Assembly: GCF_014636865.1 (NCBI RefSeq)
Contig: NZ_BMER01000005.1
Span: 246,584-310,583, forward strand
Direction of reading: 5' to 3'
DNA length: 64,000 nucleotides
Source of the DNA: Parapedobacter pyrenivorans
GTDB lineage: Bacteria; Bacteroidota; Bacteroidia; Sphingobacteriales; Sphingobacteriaceae
Part shown: piece after piece, positions 46,049 to 63,998 of the stretch
Layout of the letters: each line of letters opens with the position of its first letter
Position numbering within the stretch: position 1 is the first letter of the stretch
Notes under the pieces: generated by a model
Databases searched by the model: none
Seen by the model: the letters and a program-made list of their open reading frames with translations, nothing else
What the model was told of the DNA's origin: nothing
Program-made: the position numbers and the translations under genes

Positions 46049-46783
46049 TTACTGGCCTGTACCCTGGGAGTCATCCCGGAAGCGCGCACGCAATTCGGCG
46101 CGATGGGCCCTGCTCACCGGTACAACCGCATCCGTACCAAAGAACGTCACGAAGTCCGGCCCAAGCCGGCGCAATTGCCATAACGAAATGATATAACTTT
46201 TATGCACCTGCAGGAAGTAGGTTTTAGGAAGCATGTCCGAAACTTCTTTCAGCGTTTGGCGGAAAGAGACCTTGTCGTCATTTCCCAGATGAATCGTTGT
46301 TTCGTTGCCACGTACCTCTATAAACCTGATCTCAATTGGCAATACCCGCTCTTTTATAGCCCCTGTTCCAAACGTGATGTGTTCGGTAAGCGAATGATCC
46401 GTTTTCGGTTTGCCGTTCATCCGGTCTACGGTCCGTTTCATCGCCTCTTTAAAATCGCCAAACGAAAACGGCTTGGTCAGGTAATGGATGGCATCAAACT
46501 CATGACTCTTTGTTGCCGTCTTTTTAGAATTGTGTCCCGTCATAAACACAACAAGCGGTTTTTTTGGCAGGGATTCTATCATTTCCATCCCATTCATATC
46601 GGGCAGTTGGATGTCGGCGATTAGCAAGTGTACCGGATTTTCAAGCAGGAAATCGCGGGTTTCCGTTGCGGAAGTAAAACAACCTTTGCATTCAAAATTC
46701 GGCAATTCCTTGAAATACAATAATAACAGTTCATGGATTTTGGTGTCGTCTTCCATGATAACGTAGTAGATGATTGGCTCCAT
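46049..46783 (-). CDS. LytTR family response regulator
   Basis: The 244-residue protein has a receiver domain (about 5-120; phosphoacceptor Asp in LLIADIQLPDMNGMEM, conserved Thr in VVFMTGHNS, Lys in YLTKPF) and a LytTR DNA-binding domain (about 145-235: EIRFIEVRGNETTIHL, FLQVHKSYIISLWQLRR). LytTR regulators often control virulence, bacteriocin or peptide-signalling genes. Its start shares one base with the stop of the histidine kinase, so the pair is translationally coupled. It is the last gene of the unit that begins with the 49-residue peptide at 49021. Confidence 0.93.
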   Translation of the reverse strand: MEPIIYYVIMEDDTKIHELLLLYFKELPNFECKGCFTSATETRDFLLENPVHLLIADIQLPDMNGMEMIESLPKKPLVVFMTGHNSKKTATKSHEFDAIHYLTKPFSFGDFKEAMKRTVDRMNGKPKTDHSLTEHITFGTGAIKERVLPIEIRFIEVRGNETTIHLGNDDKVSFRQTLKEVSDMLPKTYFLQVHKSYIISLWQLRRLGPDFVTFFGTDAVVPVSRAHRAELRARFRDDSQGTGQ

Positions 46784-47841
46784 TAATTATATATTATGGT
46801 TAAATAGACGGTGTATGTGTGCTCCTCTTCCCGGATTTCCAGCTTTACATCATGCCTATCCAGCAAGGCAAGCTCTTGCTTCACGAGCTCAAGGCCCTTG
46901 CCCGTGCTTTCCACCTTCTTGCCACCTATGCGCTTGGCATTGGCGCAAGAAAAAGCCATCATTCCCCTGTTGAAAACAAAGCTTACGTTTATTGGATGCG
47001 TTAGATCTACCAATCCATGGGTGTCGCTGTTTTCAAGGATCGTAGTGAGTGTCAATGGCCCGATGGTCTGCATGGTCGGCTCACCCTCCGCTGTTATGCG
47101 GATAATCCGCTCATCGTTGCCCCTCCGCAGTCGGATAGAGGTAACCACCTGGTCGAAATAGCCGAGTGCCCTATGGATGTCTACCAATGGTACACGCTGC
47201 TGCACCACACCCGCTATATAGTCAAACGTTTTGCCGATATGCGTTACCTGGTCAGCCGTGTACGTATCGCCCGCCAGTGTGGCACGGGTAGCTACATCGG
47301 TCATCACGTGCTTGGCATAGTGCGACTGGCCTGCATTCAGCAGCTGATCATTCTTTGTTTCAACCAATTCCTTTTCGCGCAGGGCAGTTTGGTGTTCCAA
47401 TGCAATAACCCGCTTGCCCATCATTTCTTTTCGATAAAATACATAGTATAAGCCCGCGCCAATCCATACGGTCTTTAGCCCTATAAGCACCTTAGCCGAG
47501 AATTCTTTTACGTCAAATTCGGCGTGGGCGTACTGGAGTTCAATGCCCAGTAGCGGAAAGAGTACATACACCAACACCGGTGCCGCCAAGGGGAGCACCA
47601 AGGAGAATAGCAATGCTATTTTGCCGGCATACCGCCGTCTGCCCCGGTCAAAAGAAATCCGGATGAGGTAACAGTACCCATAAAACGCCGCGATCTGGGA
47701 TCCACCCACCGCCAGTGAATGTGTGAAATCGGTATTATCATGCAAGAAACGATTAACGATATACGTCAACACGATAAACAAGGCGCCAAAGGCAACCTGC
47801 AATCCAACAGGCAAATGCAAAGGTGTTTTTTTCTTTTCCAT
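46783..47841 (-). CDS. Membrane histidine kinase of the LytS/AgrC kind, atypical His box
   Basis: The 352-residue protein has four hydrophobic segments (about 9-32, 41-61, 73-98, 114-133) with little outside the membrane. Then come a coiled-coil, an H-box reading LLNAGQSHYAKHVM (the usual form is QxNPHFLFN), and a HATPase domain with TTILENSDTHG and STGKGLELVKQELALL. The His is present but the surrounding residues differ, and the Asn is replaced, so phosphotransfer ability needs proof. A membrane-embedded sensor is typical of kinases for peptides or lipids. It is co-transcribed with the LytTR gene and follows the acyltransferase by 65 bases. Confidence 0.85.
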   Translation of the reverse strand: MEKKKTPLHLPVGLQVAFGALFIVLTYIVNRFLHDNTDFTHSLAVGGSQIAAFYGYCYLIRISFDRGRRRYAGKIALLFSLVLPLAAPVLVYVLFPLLGIELQYAHAEFDVKEFSAKVLIGLKTVWIGAGLYYVFYRKEMMGKRVIALEHQTALREKELVETKNDQLLNAGQSHYAKHVMTDVATRATLAGDTYTADQVTHIGKTFDYIAGVVQQRVPLVDIHRALGYFDQVVTSIRLRRGNDERIIRITAEGEPTMQTIGPLTLTTILENSDTHGLVDLTHPINVSFVFNRGMMAFSCANAKRIGGKKVESTGKGLELVKQELALLDRHDVKLEIREEEHTYTVYLTIIYN

Positions 47842-47906
47842 TAGGTATGGTTTGTTATGAATCGGTAAAAATGAGCGTTTAAATTACAATAAATATCACA
47901 ATTACC

Positions 47907-48779
47907 CTAGCTGGCATGCACATTCAACCATCCCTCCCATTCATATGGGCGGAGGCCTGCCACTTCCGCCAGCATGGCGTATAGCGTTGCTGTTGCACGT
48001 GCGGCATACGCCGCTTCATCTTCTCCCTGCAATGGTAGTAGCGGAGCAAGTTGCCTGTACAACAGGTGGTTGCTGCGCCCGGCAGTGATGCCTGTGGCCT
48101 TGCGTGTGCAGATGATGGGATACAAGGGCAATCCCAACCGGTAAGCCAATACGGCTGTGCCTTTCCGTACGCGCAGTTGCCCGGCACAAAACGGCAGCGT
48201 CAGTAAATTACCCGTATTTTCCGCATCGCCCGAGCCCGTGTTGCCATCCAAGTACACCAGCAAACAGCGCCCCTGTTTAGCGGCCCGCGCCATGCTTATC
48301 AGCGAGCTAGGAAGCGAGGCATTGATAAAATCGATGTCGGGCTTGATGCCGATATGCTGCGCTGCAGGCTCAAAGCGGTTTTCGAAGGTCTCTTTTTCCT
48401 GCTTCAGCACGTCGCCGGCCACGACCAGGCTGAGGGGTGTGCCGGCATGGGCAAGCAGCAAGTTCAGGAAACGGTATGACCCCGTATGGAAGGTGCAGAT
48501 AATGCCCGGGCGCTTCTGCAGGGCGCTGGCATAGCTAGCATCCCATCCGTGTACCTGCATGGCGCAAGCCTGCTCAATGTCCAGGTCGCTCAGCATCCTG
48601 TTGGCCTGCAATTGGTTAAATAAACTCAGGTAATCACGCTGGGGTATATGCGGCAATAGGCTATACACGTTTGCGCTAAAGTAGGCAAACTCCCGCTGCA
48701 TGCGTTGGTTGGTGTTTTTCAGATCGTGTTGCAGGTAGGCATCAATCCGTTTTGTCCGGTCTGTAAGTATGTTTAACAT
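47907..48779 (-). CDS. LpxL/lysophospholipid-acyltransferase-fold protein
   Basis: The 290-residue protein resembles the LpxL/HtrB acyltransferase group: GIICTFHTGSYRFLNLLLAH at about 90-110 fits the His-motif strand, and a later part (LDGNTGSGDAENTGNLLTLP, then RKGTAVLAYRLGLPLYPIICTR) matches the G/pocket region before the PxxxxR end. The HxxxxD/E catalytic pair is incomplete: the acid position holds Arg (HTGSYR). Whether it transfers fatty acid to a peptide, a lipid or at all is open. It follows a 49-residue peptide gene and precedes the kinase, so it may modify that peptide. It lacks a clear membrane span. Confidence 0.7.
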   Translation of the reverse strand: MLNILTDRTKRIDAYLQHDLKNTNQRMQREFAYFSANVYSLLPHIPQRDYLSLFNQLQANRMLSDLDIEQACAMQVHGWDASYASALQKRPGIICTFHTGSYRFLNLLLAHAGTPLSLVVAGDVLKQEKETFENRFEPAAQHIGIKPDIDFINASLPSSLISMARAAKQGRCLLVYLDGNTGSGDAENTGNLLTLPFCAGQLRVRKGTAVLAYRLGLPLYPIICTRKATGITAGRSNHLLYRQLAPLLPLQGEDEAAYAARATATLYAMLAEVAGLRPYEWEGWLNVHAS

Positions 48780-48823
48780 GGTTTTTCGGGTTTATGGTGT
48801 TATCATTGTGTTGTGGTCGCGTT

Positions 48824-48855
48824 AAAAAAACGGGGGCAGCATCGGCCGCCCCCGT
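48824..48855 (-). terminator. Terminator between the small peptide gene and the acyltransferase gene
   Basis: On the minus strand ACGGGGGC (48855-48848) pairs perfectly with GCCCCCGT (48837-48830) and is followed by a seven-T run. It sits 17 bases after the peptide stop, so most transcripts should end here and the acyltransferase/kinase genes would be read through less often. Confidence 0.9.
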
Positions 48856-48871
48856 ATCACCATTCCGTGCA

Positions 48872-49021
48872 TTACAGCGGGGTAAACCCGCACTTCGGCA
48901 CTTTAGGCTCATCTTCCTCGTCAGCGCTCAGCAAACCAAACAGGGCCTGCAAAGGCATTGGGTTTTCCATGATCGTACCTGCACAAGACTGGGCTTTGCT
49001 ATCGAAATTCATCGTTTTCAT
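48872..49021 (-). CDS. Small 49-residue Cys-containing peptide, putative signal or RiPP precursor
   Basis: A short gene reads MKTMNFDSKAQSCAGTIMEN, then PMPLQALFGLLSADEEDEP and KVPKCGFTPL. It has a basic-polar start, an amphipathic or hydrophobic centre, an acidic linker (ADEEDEP) and a short end with a single Cys, the layout of precursor peptides with a separable leader. Cys13 and Cys44 are the only cysteines. A good terminator follows, which suggests strong expression of the short transcript. Its position directly before the acyltransferase-fold gene and the kinase/LytTR pair suggests that it is processed or sensed by them. Start could also be the ATG at 49012. No known peptide family is recognised. 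Confidence 0.6.
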   Translation of the reverse strand: MKTMNFDSKAQSCAGTIMENPMPLQALFGLLSADEEDEPKVPKCGFTPL

Positions 49022-49201
49022 TTCGTGATAATCCAACTATTAAACCATTACCCGCTTTGGTGTTTACCGGGGCTTCAGGCACCTTCCCCGTACCTGCGGC
49101 CGCAGGGTATTTGTGTGATCACGATGCAAGGATAAGGAGCCGAAAACACATATGGAAAGGGTAGGGATACATAGCCGGATATCGGTATACGAACGGCGCA
49201 A

Positions 49202-49240
49202 ATTTGTGATAACCTGCAACAGCTACCGGTTATCACAAAT
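49202..49240. promoter_or_regulatory. 13-bp inverted repeat operator between the peptide gene and the AraC gene
   Basis: ATTTGTGATAACC (49202-49214) and GGTTATCACAAAT (49228-49240) are exact inverted copies with a 13-base spacer. Related half sites are TTTCGTGATAATCC at 49020-49033, which overlaps the start codon of the peptide gene on the other strand, and CATCACAAGG near 49251-49260. The layout suggests that a dimeric regulator, perhaps the AraC protein, controls both divergent genes. Confidence 0.7.
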
Positions 49241-49298
49241 ACATGCCGTTCATCACAAGGTCTTTGCTATGCGGAGATCGGTTGGCTAGTTTCGAAGC

Positions 49299-50285
49299 AT
49301 GCGGCTATCCATCCACATCGCCAGGCCCGATGCCCGCGTACGCGACGAAACCGCCATACGCGCGGCCGTGGCGCGCAGCGCCTACCCGTTGCCGGGTGCG
49401 GAGGTGCGGTATTGGGCAGCGCACGGATGGAGCGTGCTGGAGCAGGGGTACGACCTGCCCGACGTATATGCTTGCAGCATCGAGGTGGAGGCCAGCAGCG
49501 ATGCCACCATACCTATCCATTGCCCCAGGCACGATTTGTACGGATTTTACGTATTGGCGGGGAGCCTCCATATTACCGGTGCCGATGAGCAGACCGCTGT
49601 GCTGCGCACCGATGCCGGGCACTACCGGCTCAGCTACCTCCCCGCGGCCGCCTACAGCTGTCACTTTGCGGCAGGTAGGCACCATATTTTTTACTTCGTA
49701 GCCAAGGATAGCGTGCTATTCCGCGAGGCCAGCCACGAGCTGGAGGAAAACATTGCGCCCGTGGAAGCCCTGCGGGCCAAGCTCGGTACACCGGCGGTGA
49801 GCGCCAGCCTTTCCACGGCCGGCGCGGCAACGGATGCCATCCGGCGATTTATGCACCATCCTGGCAGTAGCTACCTGCGGCGTTACATTGCTATTCAGAC
49901 GCTCGTGATCACGCTGTTGTTAGCAGCCTGCGAGAAATTGCATGTGCAGGCTGCCACAGGGCGGGTCGGCTTCGTACTAGCTACGCGTATGCGTGCGTAT
50001 ATTGATGATCAGGTGGCCGATGGCGACAATGTCGATGCCGCCAAGGTGGCGCGGCGGTTTGGGGTATCCTACGCCTATGCCAAGGTGATTTTCCGTACGC
50101 ACGTAGGCCAGGCCATCGGCGGGTACATCCGTTGCAGCAAGTTGGAGCAAGCGCGCCGTATGCTCCTAGCGGGCGAAACCCCGGCGCAGGTAGCGCGGTA
50201 TGTGTGCTGGACGTATGGGCATTTCAATAAGGCGTTTAAGGCGCGGTATGGGGTGCCGCCGGGGGGCTATCGGCAGCATACATAA
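49299..50285 (+). CDS. AraC family transcriptional regulator
   Basis: The 328-residue protein has a cupin-like N-terminal part (about 40-150, YGFYVLAGSLHITGADEQ) and a C-terminal AraC domain (about 220-325, VDAAKVARRFGVSYAYAKVIFRTHVGQ and AQVARYVCWTYGHFNKAFKARYGVPPGGYR). Effector is unknown. It is divergent from the 49-residue peptide gene, with a 13-bp inverted repeat and related half sites in the 277-base gap, so it probably regulates itself and the peptide. Its GC content is higher than that of the ATPase gene that follows. Confidence 0.88.
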   Translation: MRLSIHIARPDARVRDETAIRAAVARSAYPLPGAEVRYWAAHGWSVLEQGYDLPDVYACSIEVEASSDATIPIHCPRHDLYGFYVLAGSLHITGADEQTAVLRTDAGHYRLSYLPAAAYSCHFAAGRHHIFYFVAKDSVLFREASHELEENIAPVEALRAKLGTPAVSASLSTAGAATDAIRRFMHHPGSSYLRRYIAIQTLVITLLLAACEKLHVQAATGRVGFVLATRMRAYIDDQVADGDNVDAAKVARRFGVSYAYAKVIFRTHVGQAIGGYIRCSKLEQARRMLLAGETPAQVARYVCWTYGHFNKAFKARYGVPPGGYRQHT

Positions 50286-55870: not shown

Positions 55871-57016
55871 CTATTTCGACGAGTCGCTAAATTTGATGTC
55901 CATTTTGAAAAGTTCTAAAGCCGCCTCCTTCGTCTTTTGATCCGGTTGTTTCCCCGCTTGATAGTTTCGATCCACCCGGCCGAAATAGAGGTCCATTTTC
56001 TCCGAACCGTATTCCGCTTCCAGCTCTCGCCATTGGGCAGGCTGCAGGCACGCCATCCATTGATAAGCATGTTCAGGCTCGCTCAACAATTTGCAATGGC
56101 GGAGTTGATAATCCGGCATCAGCAACAAGGATAGCTCGCCCATCATCTCATTAATTGTCGCTACGGCTTCCGGGTGCCGAAAGCGGACGTTACGAGACTT
56201 GTACGCCATTTCCAGGTAAGTGCCGTCTTCAAAATCAGGAACATCACGGATGGTGATGTGCCCTGTCTTTACCAATGAATTTACGCGTGCCAGCATCGCC
56301 TTGTAACCATAGGGCGGCAATACGCGAAAGATGTAGGGATCCGGGATTTGATGGATCGGCCGTGTGAACGCATCGGGCGCTATCCCGAGATATTTTTCCA
56401 TCCCCTCTTTCCACATGAGCGGCAATGCCTCGCGGAAGCGGCTGAGAAAAGACTCATCGGAAAACTTCTTCCTGAAATGCTCCAACTCCACTATGTCTTT
56501 TTGAATTGACGATAGCATTTCGTCAATTTTTTCTTCGGCCACCAGCGGTTTTACAGCCTTAGCCAATAGGAGCAGCATTACCGAAAACAATAACATTACC
56601 GGAAAATGGACGAATGCCCAATGCTTCGCGGCGATTTCGATAGGCGAATCCGGTCGTTCTTGAAAAGACAGCAGCATCGGGAAGATCGTCATATGGTAGC
56701 ACACCGCAGAAATTAAAAGCGGGACAGCCGATTGGAGCCAGAGCTTGCGGTACCACGTCATATCGATCATCTGATAGATTTTTGCATACCGGTAAATCGT
56801 TTCATTCGCCCATACCAATCCTACATAAGCCAAGGCCCCCATACCATAAAACCAGCTATCCGGAATATCCGGCTTTGGCGAAACAGACCACACCAGCCAT
56901 GCAAAAAGAAAGAATAAGAAAGTCGTGAACGCTATCCTAAACGGGAAACGCGGAGATAATGCGGAGCCCGGCATAAAGGACATCCAAAAATTCTTGAAAT
57001 ACGGTTTACTTCTCAT
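55871..57016 (-). CDS. Uncharacterised four-helix membrane protein with a large cytosolic part
   Basis: The 381-residue protein has four hydrophobic segments in its first 165 residues (FTTFLFFLFAWLVWSV, WFYGMGALAYVGLVW, AVPLLISAVCYHMTIF, FPVMLLFSVMLLLLAKAV). They are followed by a coiled-coil (EEKIDEMLSSIQKDIVELEHFR) and a mixed cytosolic domain. The architecture recalls membrane sensors, but there is no kinase, cyclase or receiver motif. No family is recognised. It stands alone between the AraC gene and the divergent unit at 57169. Confidence 0.65.
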   Translation of the reverse strand: MRSKPYFKNFWMSFMPGSALSPRFPFRIAFTTFLFFLFAWLVWSVSPKPDIPDSWFYGMGALAYVGLVWANETIYRYAKIYQMIDMTWYRKLWLQSAVPLLISAVCYHMTIFPMLLSFQERPDSPIEIAAKHWAFVHFPVMLLFSVMLLLLAKAVKPLVAEEKIDEMLSSIQKDIVELEHFRKKFSDESFLSRFREALPLMWKEGMEKYLGIAPDAFTRPIHQIPDPYIFRVLPPYGYKAMLARVNSLVKTGHITIRDVPDFEDGTYLEMAYKSRNVRFRHPEAVATINEMMGELSLLLMPDYQLRHCKLLSEPEHAYQWMACLQPAQWRELEAEYGSEKMDLYFGRVDRNYQAGKQPDQKTKEAALELFKMDIKFSDSSK

Positions 57017-57168: not shown

Positions 57169-58074
57169 ATGAACGAAACAAACCCCATAGTAACCTCCAA
57201 CATCACCCCCGGGATGATCGGCCACTACCGGCAGCTGCTCAGCCTGCGGCACGAAAATACGGATTGGCTCCGCGGCTATAGCGGCTTCGGCTACCAGCTG
57301 CGTGCGTTTACCGCAAGCCATCTTTTTATCATCCGGTTTGATCATGGCTATAGAGAAGGGAGCACGGCGTATTTATCAGTGGTAAACGGTGTTGCCGAAT
57401 GGCGGTATGCAGACTTGGATTGCGGCTATGCGCGGTGTCCTGTAGTGGTTGATCCCGAGGCGATCCGGCAGCTTGACGAGGTGTTTCTGCGCTACTATCG
57501 GCAAAACCGGCTCCCCGATGTGCTGAGCGACGATGGCCAGCACCTATCCGAGCGGCTGGCCTGGCTAAACGAGCATTTCTTTTCGACTGGCGAGGTGGTC
57601 GATTCCACCATCGTGCAGGATGAAGATATGATCGGCGAACTCTTTTGCTGGGACGGGGTGTGGGAGTTTCTGAAATATTTAAGTTTTAATTTAGGGCATT
57701 ACCAGCGTCGGTTTAAGCTGGCGTGGGTAGCCTTGCACAACTATCCGGAGCGCCTGCTTAAAATCCGTTTCGGTCGGCATGTCCGCTTCGTGGATGTAGG
57801 CATGGGGGGAAGTCTCTACCTCCACCTGCTGCTGTGCCTCAACGAAATTTTCTGGCCTTATTTCGAAATCCGGCGCTATCGCAACGGAAACACCGGCCCG
57901 GGAGGCGTGCTTCCCATTCTATCCGTGTACGACTGGAACCGGCTGGAGCAAATGCATGGCTGCGAAGCCATGGATTCAAAATTTGAGCGGATTACCCCGA
58001 AGACGGAGCTCTTTATCCCGACGGACGGAAAGGGGGAGTTCATCCGGCCGTACAACGAACTACTTGGGTTATGA
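57169..58074 (+). CDS. Uncharacterised cytosolic protein
   Basis: This 301-residue protein has no signal peptide or membrane span and no motif I recognise. It is rich in aromatic residues (LRGYSGFGYQLRAFTA, IIRFDHGYREGSTAYLSV) and Tyr/Trp-containing helices (EYKF-like WEFLKYLSFNLGHYQRRFKL). Its stop overlaps the next gene by four bases (ATGA), so they are coupled. Two further genes in this orientation encode a MauE-type membrane protein and a small Cys-containing exported protein. The first gene could be part of the same export or redox unit but nothing shows that directly. Confidence 0.6.
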   Translation: MNETNPIVTSNITPGMIGHYRQLLSLRHENTDWLRGYSGFGYQLRAFTASHLFIIRFDHGYREGSTAYLSVVNGVAEWRYADLDCGYARCPVVVDPEAIRQLDEVFLRYYRQNRLPDVLSDDGQHLSERLAWLNEHFFSTGEVVDSTIVQDEDMIGELFCWDGVWEFLKYLSFNLGHYQRRFKLAWVALHNYPERLLKIRFGRHVRFVDVGMGGSLYLHLLLCLNEIFWPYFEIRRYRNGNTGPGGVLPILSVYDWNRLEQMHGCEAMDSKFERITPKTELFIPTDGKGEFIRPYNELLGL

Positions 58075-58461: not shown

Positions 58462-58929
58462 ATGGAAAAGAAAATACGATATTTCGATATTATCCTCCGC
58501 ATCCTTTTCGCGGCCTTGTTTACCTATACAGCCGCGATGAAGCTGATCGACTTTCCCGTTTACCGCATCAAGATGCGACGGCAGCATTTTTTCGAGCCGT
58601 TGAAAGAATGGTTGGTATGGGGTGTGCCCATTGCCGAATTGCTTGTAGCCATTGCTTTGGTGCTTCCGTACCTGGTGGCGTCACCGAAGCTGGCGAGGGT
58701 TAGTTTGATGGGCAACCTCGTGCTGATCGGCGGTTTCACCTTGTATGCGGGCTTGGCAGCTTCGGGCATCTTCGGCTATACACCCTGTGCCTGCGGCGGA
58801 TTATTAGAAGGTATGGGATGGTGGGAACATTTCCTGTTCAACCTGGTATTGACATCGATCGCAGCCATTGGCGTCTGGTTGCATCGGATTAAAAAAGACG
58901 CCGCATTATTCACGTCGGTTTGTGGTTAA
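58462..58929 (+). CDS. MauE/DoxX family redox-associated membrane protein
   Basis: The 155-residue protein has four membrane spans (IILRILFAALFTYTAAMKLI, VPIAELLVAIALVLPYLVA, SLMGNLVLIGGFTLYAGLAA, FLFNLVLTSIAAIGVWL) and the motif GYTPCACGGLLEGMGWWEHF. The two Cys in CACGG are typical of Bacteroidota MauE-like proteins. MauE is needed for disulfide formation in methylamine dehydrogenase; its Bacteroidota relatives pair with small Cys-rich exported proteins, as the next gene here. It may handle disulfides for that protein. Confidence 0.8.
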   Translation: MEKKIRYFDIILRILFAALFTYTAAMKLIDFPVYRIKMRRQHFFEPLKEWLVWGVPIAELLVAIALVLPYLVASPKLARVSLMGNLVLIGGFTLYAGLAASGIFGYTPCACGGLLEGMGWWEHFLFNLVLTSIAAIGVWLHRIKKDAALFTSVCG

Positions 58930-59497: not shown

Positions 59498-60874
59498 TTA
59501 CCGTGCGTTTTGTTCGATGCCCGTCTGTTGCACTACGTTAGCCGGTATCAAAAACGTGTATCGAGCGTCATCAGGGTTCAAGGTATAAGTCTCACTACCC
59601 ATGCTGCGGGTCAATGTTTTTGCAAACCTCGGGTCTTTATTCAGCCTTCTAAGATCACTCCAGCGTATACCGGCTCTAAAAGCCAGTTCCTTGTTTCTTT
59701 CTGCGATAATCAGCTGCAACGCTTCATCGGCGTCTGTGGCTTGATAAGGAATAAACTCAGATTTCTCCCATCGGGTTACCAGTAACGTGTTCAGGCTCTC
59801 AATTGCGAGATCGGCGTTGCTCAACCTCGCGTGGCATTCTGCTTTGATGAGCCACAGTTCATCGGTTGCCAAGCCGGCAAAGGGAATACCCGGATTGGTG
59901 CCGTAATCGCCCTTGAAATGATAGGTTCCATCGGCATTTTGTCGATAGTATACCTGTTTACGTAAGTCGGCGTCGTGATACGAAGCATACAAAACGGAGT
60001 CAACCCTGGCTCTGGGCGTTACGAATCCTCCGCCTCCATTCGGTATTTGCGCATGAAACAACACCTCGATGTTGAGCACTTCAATCGGCTTTGTTGCCAG
60101 CGGGTCCAAGTCATTAAAGTCCATCAACCCATCTTCCAATTCCAGTGCTGCGTTGGCGTGATCTAAGCTACGCTGGTAATCGCCCATGATGAGGTAGACC
60201 CTTGCCAACGCTGCATGTGCCGCGGCTTTATCGGGGCGCACGGCCACTGGAGAACTGGTAGGCAGCAAATCAATTGCGCGGGAGAGATCTGTTATGATCT
60301 GTTGGTATGTCTCCGCCAGCGATGAACGTGTAGTAGGAGCCTCGATATTAGGCGAGAGCCGCAGCGGAATTCCTAACGATTGGTCCGCCGAGCCACTATC
60401 AAATGGAACGGCAAAAAGTTGGGCCAGTTGGAAAAAGCACCACCCCCGGATAAAGTGCGCAGTACCTTGGATACGTTTCCTGTCCGTCTCCGTCAAATTT
60501 CCGGCTTCGGCGCTTCCAGCCTCTTCCAGTACCACATTTACGTCAAAGATATTGAGGTACAAATTGTTCCAATCGCGATCTGCTGAGGCGTCCGGCGCCC
60601 ACAGGTAAATGTTCCGGGCGTCAAACGCGTCGTTGAGGCGGTTGAAATCGGCCTCCAACAGGTAGTAGTAGTCTGCCGCAACGTCACCCGCGTAGGCATA
60701 AGAGGTGTTTCGCCTGGTTTCATTATCCAGAATCGCTTGGAGATCTTTGAGCGTTTTCGGTACGGCGAGTGAACTGTCTGGCTTCACGTCGAGGTATCTA
60801 GCGCAAGAGGCCAGCATTGTTATGCACGCAAGCGAGACCAAATGAAGCGTCATATTTCGTGTCTTTTTATCCAT
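59498..60874 (-). CDS. SusD/RagB family glycan-binding lipoprotein
   Basis: The 458-residue protein has a lipoprotein signal (ITMLASC, Cys24), the RIQGTAHFIRGWCFFQLAQLF motif, SLGIPLRLSPNIEAPTTRSS, and the end motif LIIAERNKELAFRAGIRWSDLRRLNK. It belongs to the second, shorter type of SusD. It starts four bases after the stop of the SusC gene and is the last gene of glycan locus 3 visible here. No accessory lipoprotein follows it, as the terminator comes directly downstream. Confidence 0.93.
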   Translation of the reverse strand: MDKKTRNMTLHLVSLACITMLASCARYLDVKPDSSLAVPKTLKDLQAILDNETRRNTSYAYAGDVAADYYYLLEADFNRLNDAFDARNIYLWAPDASADRDWNNLYLNIFDVNVVLEEAGSAEAGNLTETDRKRIQGTAHFIRGWCFFQLAQLFAVPFDSGSADQSLGIPLRLSPNIEAPTTRSSLAETYQQIITDLSRAIDLLPTSSPVAVRPDKAAAHAALARVYLIMGDYQRSLDHANAALELEDGLMDFNDLDPLATKPIEVLNIEVLFHAQIPNGGGGFVTPRARVDSVLYASYHDADLRKQVYYRQNADGTYHFKGDYGTNPGIPFAGLATDELWLIKAECHARLSNADLAIESLNTLLVTRWEKSEFIPYQATDADEALQLIIAERNKELAFRAGIRWSDLRRLNKDPRFAKTLTRSMGSETYTLNPDDARYTFLIPANVVQQTGIEQNAR

Positions 60875-60878
60875 GATA

Positions 60879-63800
60879 TTAAAAGGTTAGGTTTAAACCC
60901 AATGATAAGCTAAAGGGCGATGGATAACTGCGGGTATCGGGATCGATGCCCAAGTTGTTGGCACGCCAGATAATCGGTAAGTTGCGGGCATATACGGTTA
61001 TGGACGCTGATCGAGCCGGGAGTGCGGGAAACGTAGCTTTGTCTAACCGATAGCTCAGGTTGATATCTTGCAAGCGGATATGGTCTCCCCGCTCAACGGT
61101 TGCTTCCGAATCGCGATATACTTCGTCCCTACGGCTATCCGCCGGGTACACCATGGAAGGTACAGCAGTATGCTGTTCATCCCCCGGCTGCTGCCAGCGG
61201 TCATAATAGTCTCCGTGCGCTACGACACCATTATTAAGTAACCCGACATAGCTGACCGTCGGTTTTCTGAAATAATAACCTGTTCGATACGTGATGTTAG
61301 CCGAAAGGCTCAAACCAAGCAAAGACCAGGTATTTCGAAGTGAGCCGAACGTACGCGGTAAGGCCGATCCATGAAACACCAAATCATCCAACGTTGCGTT
61401 GTTGATGATATCGATATAATTTGAAGACAATTCACCGTTTGCGTAGGCCCTCGGGTTGCCGTTTGCAGGGTCAAGGCCGCCCCAGCGATAGCTCACGATG
61501 TTATATGCATCGTGGCCTTCTATCGGAATTAAGTTAGCACCGTTGCCCACGTATGCACTCGCGCGGCTCCGTTCTACAAGATATTTGGTGATTTCTGTCT
61601 TATTAACGGAAAGGAAGAAATCGGTACTCCACGCCAATGCGCCTTGCAGATTTCGGCTGTTGAGGCTAACGTCCCAGCCTTTCGTCTTTAATTGAGCAAC
61701 ATTCCGTGTCAGCGTACTAAATCCGGTGGTCATATCAGCCGGAACGGCGGCAATCAGATCCGAAGCGTTTTTTTGGAAGTACTCGATACTCCCCGAGATG
61801 CGATGGTCTTTCAACCCAAAGTCGAGCGCCAGGTTTGTCGTCGCTATGTTTTCCCAACGCAGATCAGCGTTGGGCGGATTCATGATCAGGGCATATTGAT
61901 TCCTTCCCAAAGACGACACGCCGCGGTAGTCGATTGTAGTCACAGCCGCAATGGAATTATTGACATTTCCACTGTGGCCGTATGTTGCGCGCAGTGAAAG
62001 TTGCGGCAGCCATTGCCATGCGTAAAATGATGCGTTGGACACCTGCCATTTGTAGCCCGCAGACCAAAGCGGTTTCCATTTGTTGTTGGTGGTTACGCCA
62101 AACAGGTTGGAAGCGTCCCGTCTGGCACTTGCCGTAAACACATGGTCGGTTTTGTAGGTGTAGGATGCGTTGGCGAATATCGATACAAACCGGTTCATCC
62201 GGCCTGCAAAAGTTGGAGCTTGCCCCAATTGGCTATCAAACGCCATCCCTCCATAAATCGGATACCTGTTTACCATATCAATCGGTTGGGCCAGCATCAG
62301 CTCATCGTCATACCCGAATGCGGCAGAAGCGTACGTAGATTCCTCGATCTGCCTGATTTCCCCTCCCGCCAGTACGATCAAGCGGTGGTTCCTTGTCCAA
62401 TCCTTTGCAAAGTTGAGCTGCCCGCGTATGTTATGCGCTCGGCGGTTGCTTTCCTGCAATTGAAGGATACCGCCTAGGGGCAATGGATGGTACACATTAT
62501 CGCCATTGATTTGCGTAAACCGGTTTATCTGGTTGCGTGTAGAAAATGTCTGGTCGCTGCGGTGGTTTCTGCTACCGGTTTGCTGATGTTGATACTGGTA
62601 GCGCACCTCGGCATTTAAAGCCGGTACCAGTTGGTATCTTGCTGAAAGATTGATTAACAGGTCGTTTACCCGAGCAGTATTGTCGGCCAGATCGATCTCC
62701 TCCAGCGGGCGGTAGTGCCAGTCAAGCAACTTGCCGCTGCCTACCGTATCCACGAATCCAAGACGATAAGTATGCTCCAGTATGGCCGGCCGGCCGTCAT
62801 CGTCTACCAACCGAGCGTACGGATATACCGTTCCGGTGGCGCCGGTCCGCAGCTCGCCGAGACCATTATTCTCCGAGAGGCTGTTTACATACATGATATT
62901 GGCCTGTAGCTGCAAATGCTTGATCGGATTGAAGGTGCTTTGCGTGCGTAAAGTAATGCGTTGGGAGCCATCTCCAACCTGATGATTGCGGGCCTTATCC
63001 ATTCCGCCAGCTATGAAATAGCTCAACCGGTCGCCGCCACCGTTCATATTCAGCGCATACTGCTGGGCGAGCGGTCTTTGGTACACATAATTTGCTAGGT
63101 CGTGCCGGATATCGCGTGTGCGCAGCCCATTCAGCAACCGTTGTGCCTCTTCGTCCGATAACTCACCTTGGCGCTGTTTTTCCATGATTTCCACGGCAGG
63201 TGTGATGACAGGCCAGCTAACGGTATTTGCCAAGTCGTTGTCAAATGCACCTTGCTCAAACAGGAAGTGCTCGATATCGATAAAATCCGAAGGGCTCATT
63301 TGCGGCTGGTAAAAAAGGTCCACGCGATCTTGCATGGAAACATTTGCCGTTACCGACACCGAGAACGGTTTGTTTAGTGCCGCCTTTTTGGTAGTAATGA
63401 CTACCACCCCATTACCGGCCTGTGCACCCCATATCGATGCTGCGGCAGCATCTTTTAAGAAGGTGATTCGCTCCACATCGTTTGGATTGATGTTTTGGAT
63501 ATCACCCTCATAGGGAAAATCGTCAACAACAATCAATGGTTGGGCGACTTGGGGTGATATGCTGCTTAGGCCGCGTATCCGGAAGGCTGTGTTACTTCCA
63601 CCCCGTTTGTCAAACAACATGCCGGGCACCAATCCATCAAGGCGGCTGATTACATCCTGGCTGATCTGCCGATTAAACAGCTTGCTGTCTACTTGCTCAA
63701 ACGAACCGGTAAGCCGGTCTTTTGGTAAGTTTTGATAGCCTGTTGATACCATTACTTCCTCGATGACGTTGGAGGTGCGCTGAAGGTTGATGCTTATGGG

Positions 63801-63998
63801 CGCAGGCGGGGGCACTTTTATCAGGGTGTCAATCGCGGAATAGCCCAAGTGCGCGATGTGTAACTGCACATTCCCGCTATCGCGGATGATAAAGGAAAAG
63901 CGGCCATTGGCATCCGTGTAAGTGCCCGACTGGCTGCTGGCTACTTTGATGGATGCCCCGTGAATGGCCGTACCATGCTGTGCATCGGTGATGGAGCC
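60879..63998 (-). CDS. SusC/RagA TonB-dependent transporter, N-terminus outside the window
   Basis: The frame is open to the window edge, so the start is missing; 1039 residues are visible. The first residues (HGASIKVASSQSGTYTDANG) belong to a carboxypeptidase-regulatory-like domain. The plug follows (MVSTGYQNLPKDRLTGSFEQ, FRIRGLSSISPQVAQPLIVV, FLKDAAAASIWGAQAGNGVV) and the barrel ends SLGLNLTF. Whether an STN domain precedes it, which would show ECF/FecR control, cannot be seen. It pairs with the SusD gene four bases downstream. Confidence 0.94.
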   Translation of the reverse strand, partial: GSITDAQHGTAIHGASIKVASSQSGTYTDANGRFSFIIRDSGNVQLHIAHLGYSAIDTLIKVPPPAPISINLQRTSNVIEEVMVSTGYQNLPKDRLTGSFEQVDSKLFNRQISQDVISRLDGLVPGMLFDKRGGSNTAFRIRGLSSISPQVAQPLIVVDDFPYEGDIQNINPNDVERITFLKDAAAASIWGAQAGNGVVVITTKKAALNKPFSVSVTANVSMQDRVDLFYQPQMSPSDFIDIEHFLFEQGAFDNDLANTVSWPVITPAVEIMEKQRQGELSDEEAQRLLNGLRTRDIRHDLANYVYQRPLAQQYALNMNGGGDRLSYFIAGGMDKARNHQVGDGSQRITLRTQSTFNPIKHLQLQANIMYVNSLSENNGLGELRTGATGTVYPYARLVDDDGRPAILEHTYRLGFVDTVGSGKLLDWHYRPLEEIDLADNTARVNDLLINLSARYQLVPALNAEVRYQYQHQQTGSRNHRSDQTFSTRNQINRFTQINGDNVYHPLPLGGILQLQESNRRAHNIRGQLNFAKDWTRNHRLIVLAGGEIRQIEESTYASAAFGYDDELMLAQPIDMVNRYPIYGGMAFDSQLGQAPTFAGRMNRFVSIFANASYTYKTDHVFTASARRDASNLFGVTTNNKWKPLWSAGYKWQVSNASFYAWQWLPQLSLRATYGHSGNVNNSIAAVTTIDYRGVSSLGRNQYALIMNPPNADLRWENIATTNLALDFGLKDHRISGSIEYFQKNASDLIAAVPADMTTGFSTLTRNVAQLKTKGWDVSLNSRNLQGALAWSTDFFLSVNKTEITKYLVERSRASAYVGNGANLIPIEGHDAYNIVSYRWGGLDPANGNPRAYANGELSSNYIDIINNATLDDLVFHGSALPRTFGSLRNTWSLLGLSLSANITYRTGYYFRKPTVSYVGLLNNGVVAHGDYYDRWQQPGDEQHTAVPSMVYPADSRRDEVYRDSEATVERGDHIRLQDINLSYRLDKATFPALPARSASITVYARNLPIIWRANNLGIDPDTRSYPSPFSLSLGLNLTF

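Follow-up and report, generated by a model that had tools for sequence, protein, structure and literature searches.

Organization of the Locus

We analyzed a stretch of 64,000 nt of the Parapedobacter pyrenivorans genome (Bacteroidota, Sphingobacteriaceae; contig NZ_BMER01000005.1, positions 246,584–310,583), hereafter called the window, and concentrated on a four-gene cassette that we discuss below as a candidate peptide-signal module. On the minus strand, a gene for a small peptide is followed by genes for an LpxL-like enzyme, a membrane histidine kinase and a LytTR response regulator, and an AraC-type gene diverges from them on the other side (Table 1). Both this gene order and the divergent gene had been pointed out in a preliminary description made from the sequence alone, and both were found as described; the start of the regulator gene overlaps the stop of the kinase gene.

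Table 1. Features of the cassette and of its surroundings, in window positions.
Feature	Position	Strand	Evidence
Precursor (signal) peptide gene, proposed	48872-49021	-	Open reading frame (ORF) of 49 amino acids (aa), ends PKCGFTPL; counterparts in P. luteus and four paralogous cassettes
Terminator-like hairpin between peptide and enzyme genes	48830-48855	-	11-pair stem plus T run, z -2.4
LpxL/PatA-fold acyltransferase-family protein, proposed peptide maturase	47907-48779	-	AlphaFold2 model, fold match; some relatives match PF03279
Membrane histidine kinase, LytS-like, proposed peptide receptor	46783-47841	-	Paralogues match PF06580; aligned His, Asn and Gly invariant
LytTR response regulator	46049-46783	-	Pfam Response_reg 1.4e-15, LytTR 5.9e-15
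Direct repeat, 13 nt, 85%, period 20 (49226-49238, 49246-49258), candidate LytTR site	49226-49258		Period fits family-wide enrichment
Inverted repeat between divergent genes, 24-nt arms (49191-49214, 49228-49251)	49191-49251		83% complementary, perfect 12-nt core
Divergent AraC-type regulator	49299-50285	+	HTH_18 3.6e-14
MauE/DoxX-like membrane protein, possible partner	58462-58929	+	PF07291 5.2e-23
SusD and SusC genes, possible target or uptake operon	59498-63869	-	Pfam SusD-like_3 and Plug

Distribution and Conservation of the Gene Order

The genome of P. pyrenivorans has five copies of the enzyme gene including that of the window, and the other four (loci L010–L013 in our numbering) have the same order of small ORF, enzyme, kinase and LytTR. 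When the window enzyme was used as a single-sequence query against genome contigs no relative was found, and a query by alignment was needed. The enzyme was found in seven of nine Parapedobacter genomes, at least 52 of 251 genomes of its own family and at least seven of 395 genomes sampled evenly across the phylum, and from these tallies its distribution is patchy. The tallies are lower bounds, with up to eight candidates scored per genome in the family search and up to four in the phylum search, which lists four of the five copies of P. pyrenivorans itself.

We looked for the same gene order among the strongest 78 of the 101 enzyme places in the family search; the fragment G609:C16:21474 and the loci L014, L015 and L017, which belong to other groups, are not in these counts. 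In 66 of the 78, the enzyme gene is directly followed on its own strand by kinase and LytTR genes, as judged from profiles seeded with six cassettes, and the peptide was also called in 59 of these 66 loci. The gene upstream on the opposite strand varies: it is of AraC type in the window and L011, and Crp-like in L010, L013 and, weakly, L012, while among the 78 relatives BLAST gave an AraC-like gene in 11 and a Crp-like gene in 29.

A second collection comprises 79 named loci gathered by one motif, [CA]T[FY]H[TAL]GSYR, so that conservation of this motif in the alignments A3 and A4 is by construction, and was grouped into families by hand from record titles and gene context. A Cys-containing ORF lies upstream of the enzyme in all 14 Sphingobacteriaceae loci (5 on the reverse strand as control), 11 of which have kinase and LytTR downstream, and in all 16 Chitinophagaceae-like loci (reverse strand 4), 14 of which have the downstream pair. 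The 35 Spirosomataceae loci have no downstream pair; a divergent LytTR-type gene lies upstream in 22 of them, and the ORF in 31 (reverse strand 11). The divergent LytTR-type genes of L014 and L015 encode hydrophobic spans, and the L014 copy has a LytTR domain (7.7e-19). In the remaining 14 loci, 13 of which have the enzyme, the ORF count barely exceeds background (5 vs. 3).

The Proposed Precursor Peptide

The small frame is conserved in related genomes. An upstream ORF ending in Cys-x4-7-stop was found in 65 of the 78 relatives; the reverse strand has one in 21 of 78, and shuffling gave 12.6 on average. This rule missed frames with Cys-type ends in L069, L063, L100 and L110. The last Cys is followed by five or six residues in 61 of 69 peptides and by three, four, seven or nine in the rest (nine in L013 and L068), and is preceded by Lys in 52 of the 69. 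The five peptides of the P. pyrenivorans genome end in PKCGFTPL (window), EPCDEFIL, PKCDPWIF, DKCEIDWL and SCETPIIRIFT. A stricter peptide motif (66 of 78) misses the window peptide, which has Gly after Cys, and takes one wrong ORF, in L117.

The counterpart of the window peptide in P. luteus (L059:5200-5340) ends in PKCDFEPL, and the proportions of synonymous (pS) and nonsynonymous (pN) differences between the two are 0.82 and 0.33. Across groups of similar peptides the pooled pN/pS is 0.23, a value biased toward low pN because the groups were hand-picked from visibly similar peptides. The wrong L117 ORF also enters this value; it was corrected for the co-variation test described below, and L127, probably a chance ORF, was retained. 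The low pN/pS and the K-C-x5-6 end common to diverged cassettes point to selection acting on the peptide itself.

Tandem pairs of identical or similar precursors lie ahead of a single enzyme in L015, L183 and L191. L128 (G609:C16:12000-31900) has three successive enzyme copies, one of them truncated. All three are accompanied by peptides of similar sequence (MEQFIHEIQH...), and no adjacent kinase was labelled.

The LpxL/PatA-Fold Enzyme

The acyltransferase fold proposed in the preliminary description is borne out by an AlphaFold2 model of the window enzyme, built from a 42-sequence alignment with a predicted local distance difference test score (pLDDT) of 90.9. Its best PDB matches are LpxM (5kn7; E 4.1e-9, template modeling score 0.62 by query) and mycobacterial PatA. 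The window enzyme has no Pfam match. Among 11 family members scanned for PF03279 (Lip_A_acyltrans), three are over the cut-off (L014, L080 and L083), five are below it and three have no match (the window enzyme, L117 and L164). The evidence for the fold rests on the model, because searching PDB sequences with the enzyme profile gave nothing useful.

His98 and Asp178 are conserved in the family. HX4D/E is the catalytic motif of LpxL-type acyltransferases, and its His is present in 80 of 82 aligned rows, the other two being gaps; apart from nine seed rows, these rows were not selected by motif. The fifth position after this His is Arg in 45 of the 82 and an acid in one row (L098). Many relatives have a C-terminal extension, which might bind the leader. 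A check for a RiPP (ribosomally synthesized and post-translationally modified peptide) recognition element gave a weak hhalign match to PqqD (probability 2.5; score 15 vs. 1.4–7.4 for 20 column shuffles) and no match against PDB sequences.

Kinase, Regulator, and Co-variation with the Peptide

No Pfam family matches the window kinase significantly; its paralogues in L010 and L013 are over the cut-off of PF06580 (His_kinase) and those in L011 and L012 are below it. The four paralogous regulators all pass the Pfam cut-offs for Response_reg and LytTR. The four membrane spans formerly ascribed to the kinase did not hold up in a crude hydropathy count, which gives two or three peaks in the window kinase and three to five in the relatives tried. 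As to whether such kinase/LytTR pairs also occur apart from peptide and enzyme, the answer is mixed: related kinases are common without the enzyme, with 19 profile matches in the P. pyrenivorans genome of which five are in cassettes, but those five reach much stronger scores than the others (4.8e-121 vs. 1.3e-53), a gap that is partly by construction because they were in the profile.

The proposed co-variation of the peptide with the sensor part of the kinase was found in partial Mantel tests over 59 cassettes. The distance between peptide cores correlates with that between kinase N-terminal parts when the C-terminal part is controlled for (partial r 0.30, permutation p 0.002), and the reverse comparison gives 0.05 (p 0.13). 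Controlling for the enzyme leaves a peptide-sensor value of 0.24, and controlling for the regulator one of 0.14. Unpartialled correlations with peptide distance are 0.61 for the enzyme, 0.61 for the sensor, 0.56 for the kinase C-terminal part and 0.63 for the regulator. This pattern is what ligand-receptor and substrate-enzyme pairs would show, with shared ancestry not removed.

Promoter Repeats and Hairpin

The inverted repeat between the divergent genes, previously reported as a 13-bp operator, is real, but its arms are longer than that, and the same stretch also holds the direct repeat of period 20 (Table 1). LytTR regulators bind paired direct repeats of 9–10 bp with 11–13 bp between them, according to excerpts of the published work (PMC2766830, PMC6193735; the other papers cited below are likewise represented by excerpts). 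We scanned the regions upstream of 67 peptide genes for 9-nt repeats with at least eight matches, in comparison with shuffles. Repeats of period 21 were found in 18 of the 67 (shuffles 1.6) and those of period 20 in 13 (shuffles 1.8), an enrichment of 7–11-fold; period 22 was found in four (1.6), and periods 18, 19 and 23–25 were at background. Inside the enzyme gene, repeats were at background, with one each at periods 20 and 21. On the basis of this enrichment upstream of the peptide gene, each cassette's regulator is predicted to act on its own peptide promoter through the candidate repeats, i.e., to be autoregulatory.

The window repeat has one perfect site in its own genome, namely this promoter, and five with two mismatches, two of which are in an interspersed repeat; we name no target genes from these sites. 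On the same contig (C5, about 324100 and 333250; L215), two copies of an interspersed repeat contain TTGTGACGAACG and resemble part of the cassette repeat.

The terminator-like hairpin is an addition to the preliminary description. The terminator scan overall gave no more such sites than shuffled sequence; for the sequence that follows the peptide stop codon, folding z-scores are below -2 in 52 of 66 relatives, these scores being based on mononucleotide shuffles without a control region.

RiPP-Like Contexts and Neighboring Genes

Seven enzymes in other Bacteroidota adjoin homologues of RiPP maturases (L166, L154, L192, L205, L084, L091 and L017). ATP-grasp proteins match GRASP_w_spasm in L166 (2e-55) and L091 (8.9e-50), the latter locus also having a SPASM_w_grasp match (2e-20); M50 proteins in L166, L084 and L017 match daptide and epipeptide proteases, and M50 occurs in L205 too; arginase-type proteins lie beside the enzyme in L166, L154 and L192; and L017 has a radical SAM/SPASM protein. 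Because no match to an NCBIfam equivalog reaches its curated cut-off, these neighbors are regarded as homologues without assigned functions. L166, L154 and L192, in which the LpxL-like enzyme is accompanied by an arginase-family protein and one further protein (of M50 type in L166, which also has an ATP-grasp), are candidate lipo-RiPP clusters, and no two-component genes were labelled at these three loci. The wider enzyme family is not linked to RiPPs only, because L185, L187, L188 and L204 resemble ketosynthase or acyl-ligase clusters, as judged from the starts of their proteins.

Around the cassettes themselves, the window's MauE-like protein has three matches in the P. pyrenivorans genome, itself included, all of them less than 10 kb from a cassette (background of proximity not computed), and a fourth, more distant MauE gene adjoins the L013 cassette. 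SusC/D genes lie within 4.5 kb in 39 of the 78 relatives, for which the background was likewise not computed. Two window proteins without Pfam match (55871-57016 and 57169-58074) have paralogs beside other cassettes of the genome (L012, 379 aa, E 3e-35; L013, 308 aa, E 2e-29). These two families, MauE and SusC/D form a recurring set of neighbors, which may be targets or partners of the cassettes.

Interpretation and Alternatives

We lean toward the view that the cassette is a self-regulating RiPP-like pheromone module, whose peptide is matured by the neighboring enzyme. The small gene would give a ribosomal precursor mostly ending in Lys-Cys plus five or six residues, and the LpxL/PatA-fold protein would modify it, most likely by putting a fatty acyl group on the Lys-Cys or close to it, lipidation being a guess. 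The mature peptide would leave the cell and bind the membrane part of the kinase, which, from knowledge of its family, should phosphorylate the LytTR regulator; the regulator in turn is predicted from the sites to bind the repeats spaced by 20–21 bp upstream of the peptide gene and thereby raise its own signal. The hairpin behind the peptide gene is a possible attenuator keeping the peptide in excess over the enzyme, and the paralogous cassettes would be separate channels. Of this picture, the order of the genes and its conservation, selection on the peptide, the spacing of the repeats and the predicted fold are observed, whereas modification, export, sensing and feedback are inferred. We favor lipidation over cyclization mainly because the clusters of arginase plus enzyme recall the selidamides. 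A bolder formulation, which we offer tentatively and hold to be doubtful, is that of a new class of ribosomal lipopeptide autoinducers, in which a repurposed LpxL/PatA-fold RiPP maturase acylates the Lys-Cys-x5-6 end, LytS-like kinases sense the product, and several self-amplifying channels work in parallel in one cell.

Several points weigh against the pheromone module. Twelve of the 78 enzymes have no adjacent kinase/LytTR pair. Acyl transfer is not assured because the acid of HX4D/E is replaced, mostly by Arg, and the enzymes of the window and L011 are without the C-terminal extension. The L011 peptide has only 21 aa, a hydropathy count found no hydrophobic signal segment in the window peptide, and no exporter was recognised beside the window cassette. 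As to the promoter, the window repeat (8/9) is weaker than many of its relatives' repeats, about half of the relatives have none at the strict setting, and period-21 repeats also occur at the enzyme/kinase junction (5 of 66 vs. 2.2). In the co-variation analysis, the peptide-enzyme value given the sensor is 0.23, and this, together with the regulator matching the sensor in the unpartialled comparison, means that shared ancestry was not removed. Finally, all the support comes from sequence and model evidence.

The peptide could instead be a bacteriocin or another RiPP effector, with the kinase and LytTR merely controlling its production as in lantibiotic operons and signaling being secondary. 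We think this unlikely: enzyme relatives do lie in RiPP-like clusters and L015, L183, L191 and L128 do contain duplicated or triplicated precursors, but no immunity or dedicated export genes were recognised, the enzyme set is minimal, and most loci have a single kinase/LytTR pair for each peptide, whose core co-varies with the sensor part.

Rather improbable, in our judgment, is a thiolactone or other macrocycle of the Agr kind, in which the LpxL-fold protein would join the C-terminal carboxyl to the Cys thiol to form a ring like that of an autoinducing peptide (AIP). The core has Cys and four to six mostly hydrophobic residues (KCDFVIL, PCDEFIL, KCDIFII) like staphylococcal AIPs, the kinase and LytTR are as in Agr, and the L011 kinase has a weak match, below the cut-off, to the GHKL domain HATPase_c_5 (0.0089); cyclization, however, would find no peptide bond behind the core to drive it and no ATP-using enzyme was seen in the cassette. 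The AgrB family (PF04647) also has no match in the P. pyrenivorans genome, a search whose sensitivity is little shown because 14 control genomes gave one match, below the cut-off. An action of enzyme and kinase on membrane lipid or on the state of the envelope, with the short ORF as a regulatory leader (attenuation) peptide rather than a product, is very improbable, for the hairpin directly 3' of the ORF and the relationship of the enzyme to lipid A acyltransferases are outweighed by the pN/pS of 0.23, the K-C-x5-6 end common to diverged cassettes and the RiPP-maturase homologues beside enzyme relatives.

If the pheromone module is real, it would give Bacteroidota a peptide language, used in Sphingobacteriaceae and at the Chitinophagaceae-like loci, with a divergent-LytTR variant in Spirosomataceae, and would bring an LpxL-fold enzyme into the set of RiPP tools. 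As a cell-to-cell signal it would be of a kind not yet described for the phylum; our search of the open-access full-text literature, with subscription papers outside its scope, found no description of a peptide/enzyme/kinase/LytTR cassette. Because the predicted peptides are short, the signaling proposal is directly testable.

Comparison with Known Systems

The likeness to Agr that was noticed at the outset holds for the kinase/LytTR pair and the small peptide in the gene order, but not for membership in Agr, as there is no AgrB match and no AgrD-type tail. In the AgrD precursor, the AIP region is followed by a charged tail at the C-terminus, whereas 61 of the 69 peptides here end five or six residues past the last Cys. 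Common to both systems are a short precursor with a Cys-containing hydrophobic end, a membrane kinase, a LytTR regulator and, as predicted here, autoregulation through repeats about two DNA turns apart. In contrast to AgrBDCA of Bacillota, which uses the protease AgrB, the cassettes have an LpxL/PatA-fold enzyme and Gram-negative hosts, and their kinases are not shown to be of AgrC type, the paralogues matching PF06580 best.

The streptococcal Sil system resembles the cassette in its autoinducer peptide, kinase, LytTR regulator and direct repeats of period 21, and differs in its peptide class; no LpxL-fold enzyme is mentioned in the excerpt (PMC2766830). More generally, autoinducers are described as modified peptides in Gram-positives and as small molecules such as N-acyl homoserine lactones in Gram-negatives, and homologues of the Agr and Nis kinases and regulators occur outside Gram-positives, those of Nis in Bacteroidetes (PMC8895600).

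In the selidamides, arginase makes ornithine, which is then acylated by a GNAT enzyme (PMC9505594). Like these, the product here would be a ribosomal peptide, possibly fatty-acylated, and an arginase gene lies beside the enzyme in L166, L154 and L192 as in the case of phaeornamide; unlike here, a GNAT enzyme does the acylation, and the excerpt mentions no kinase/LytTR partner (PMC9505594).

With LpxL/LpxM and PatA, the enzyme shares the predicted fold, PF03279 in some relatives and the conserved His, while the acid of HX4D/E is mostly Arg here and the gene context is a peptide plus a two-component system. RiPP biosynthesis needs an encoded precursor next to its maturation enzyme; the cassettes have a precursor-like ORF under selection beside an enzyme that may be its maturase.

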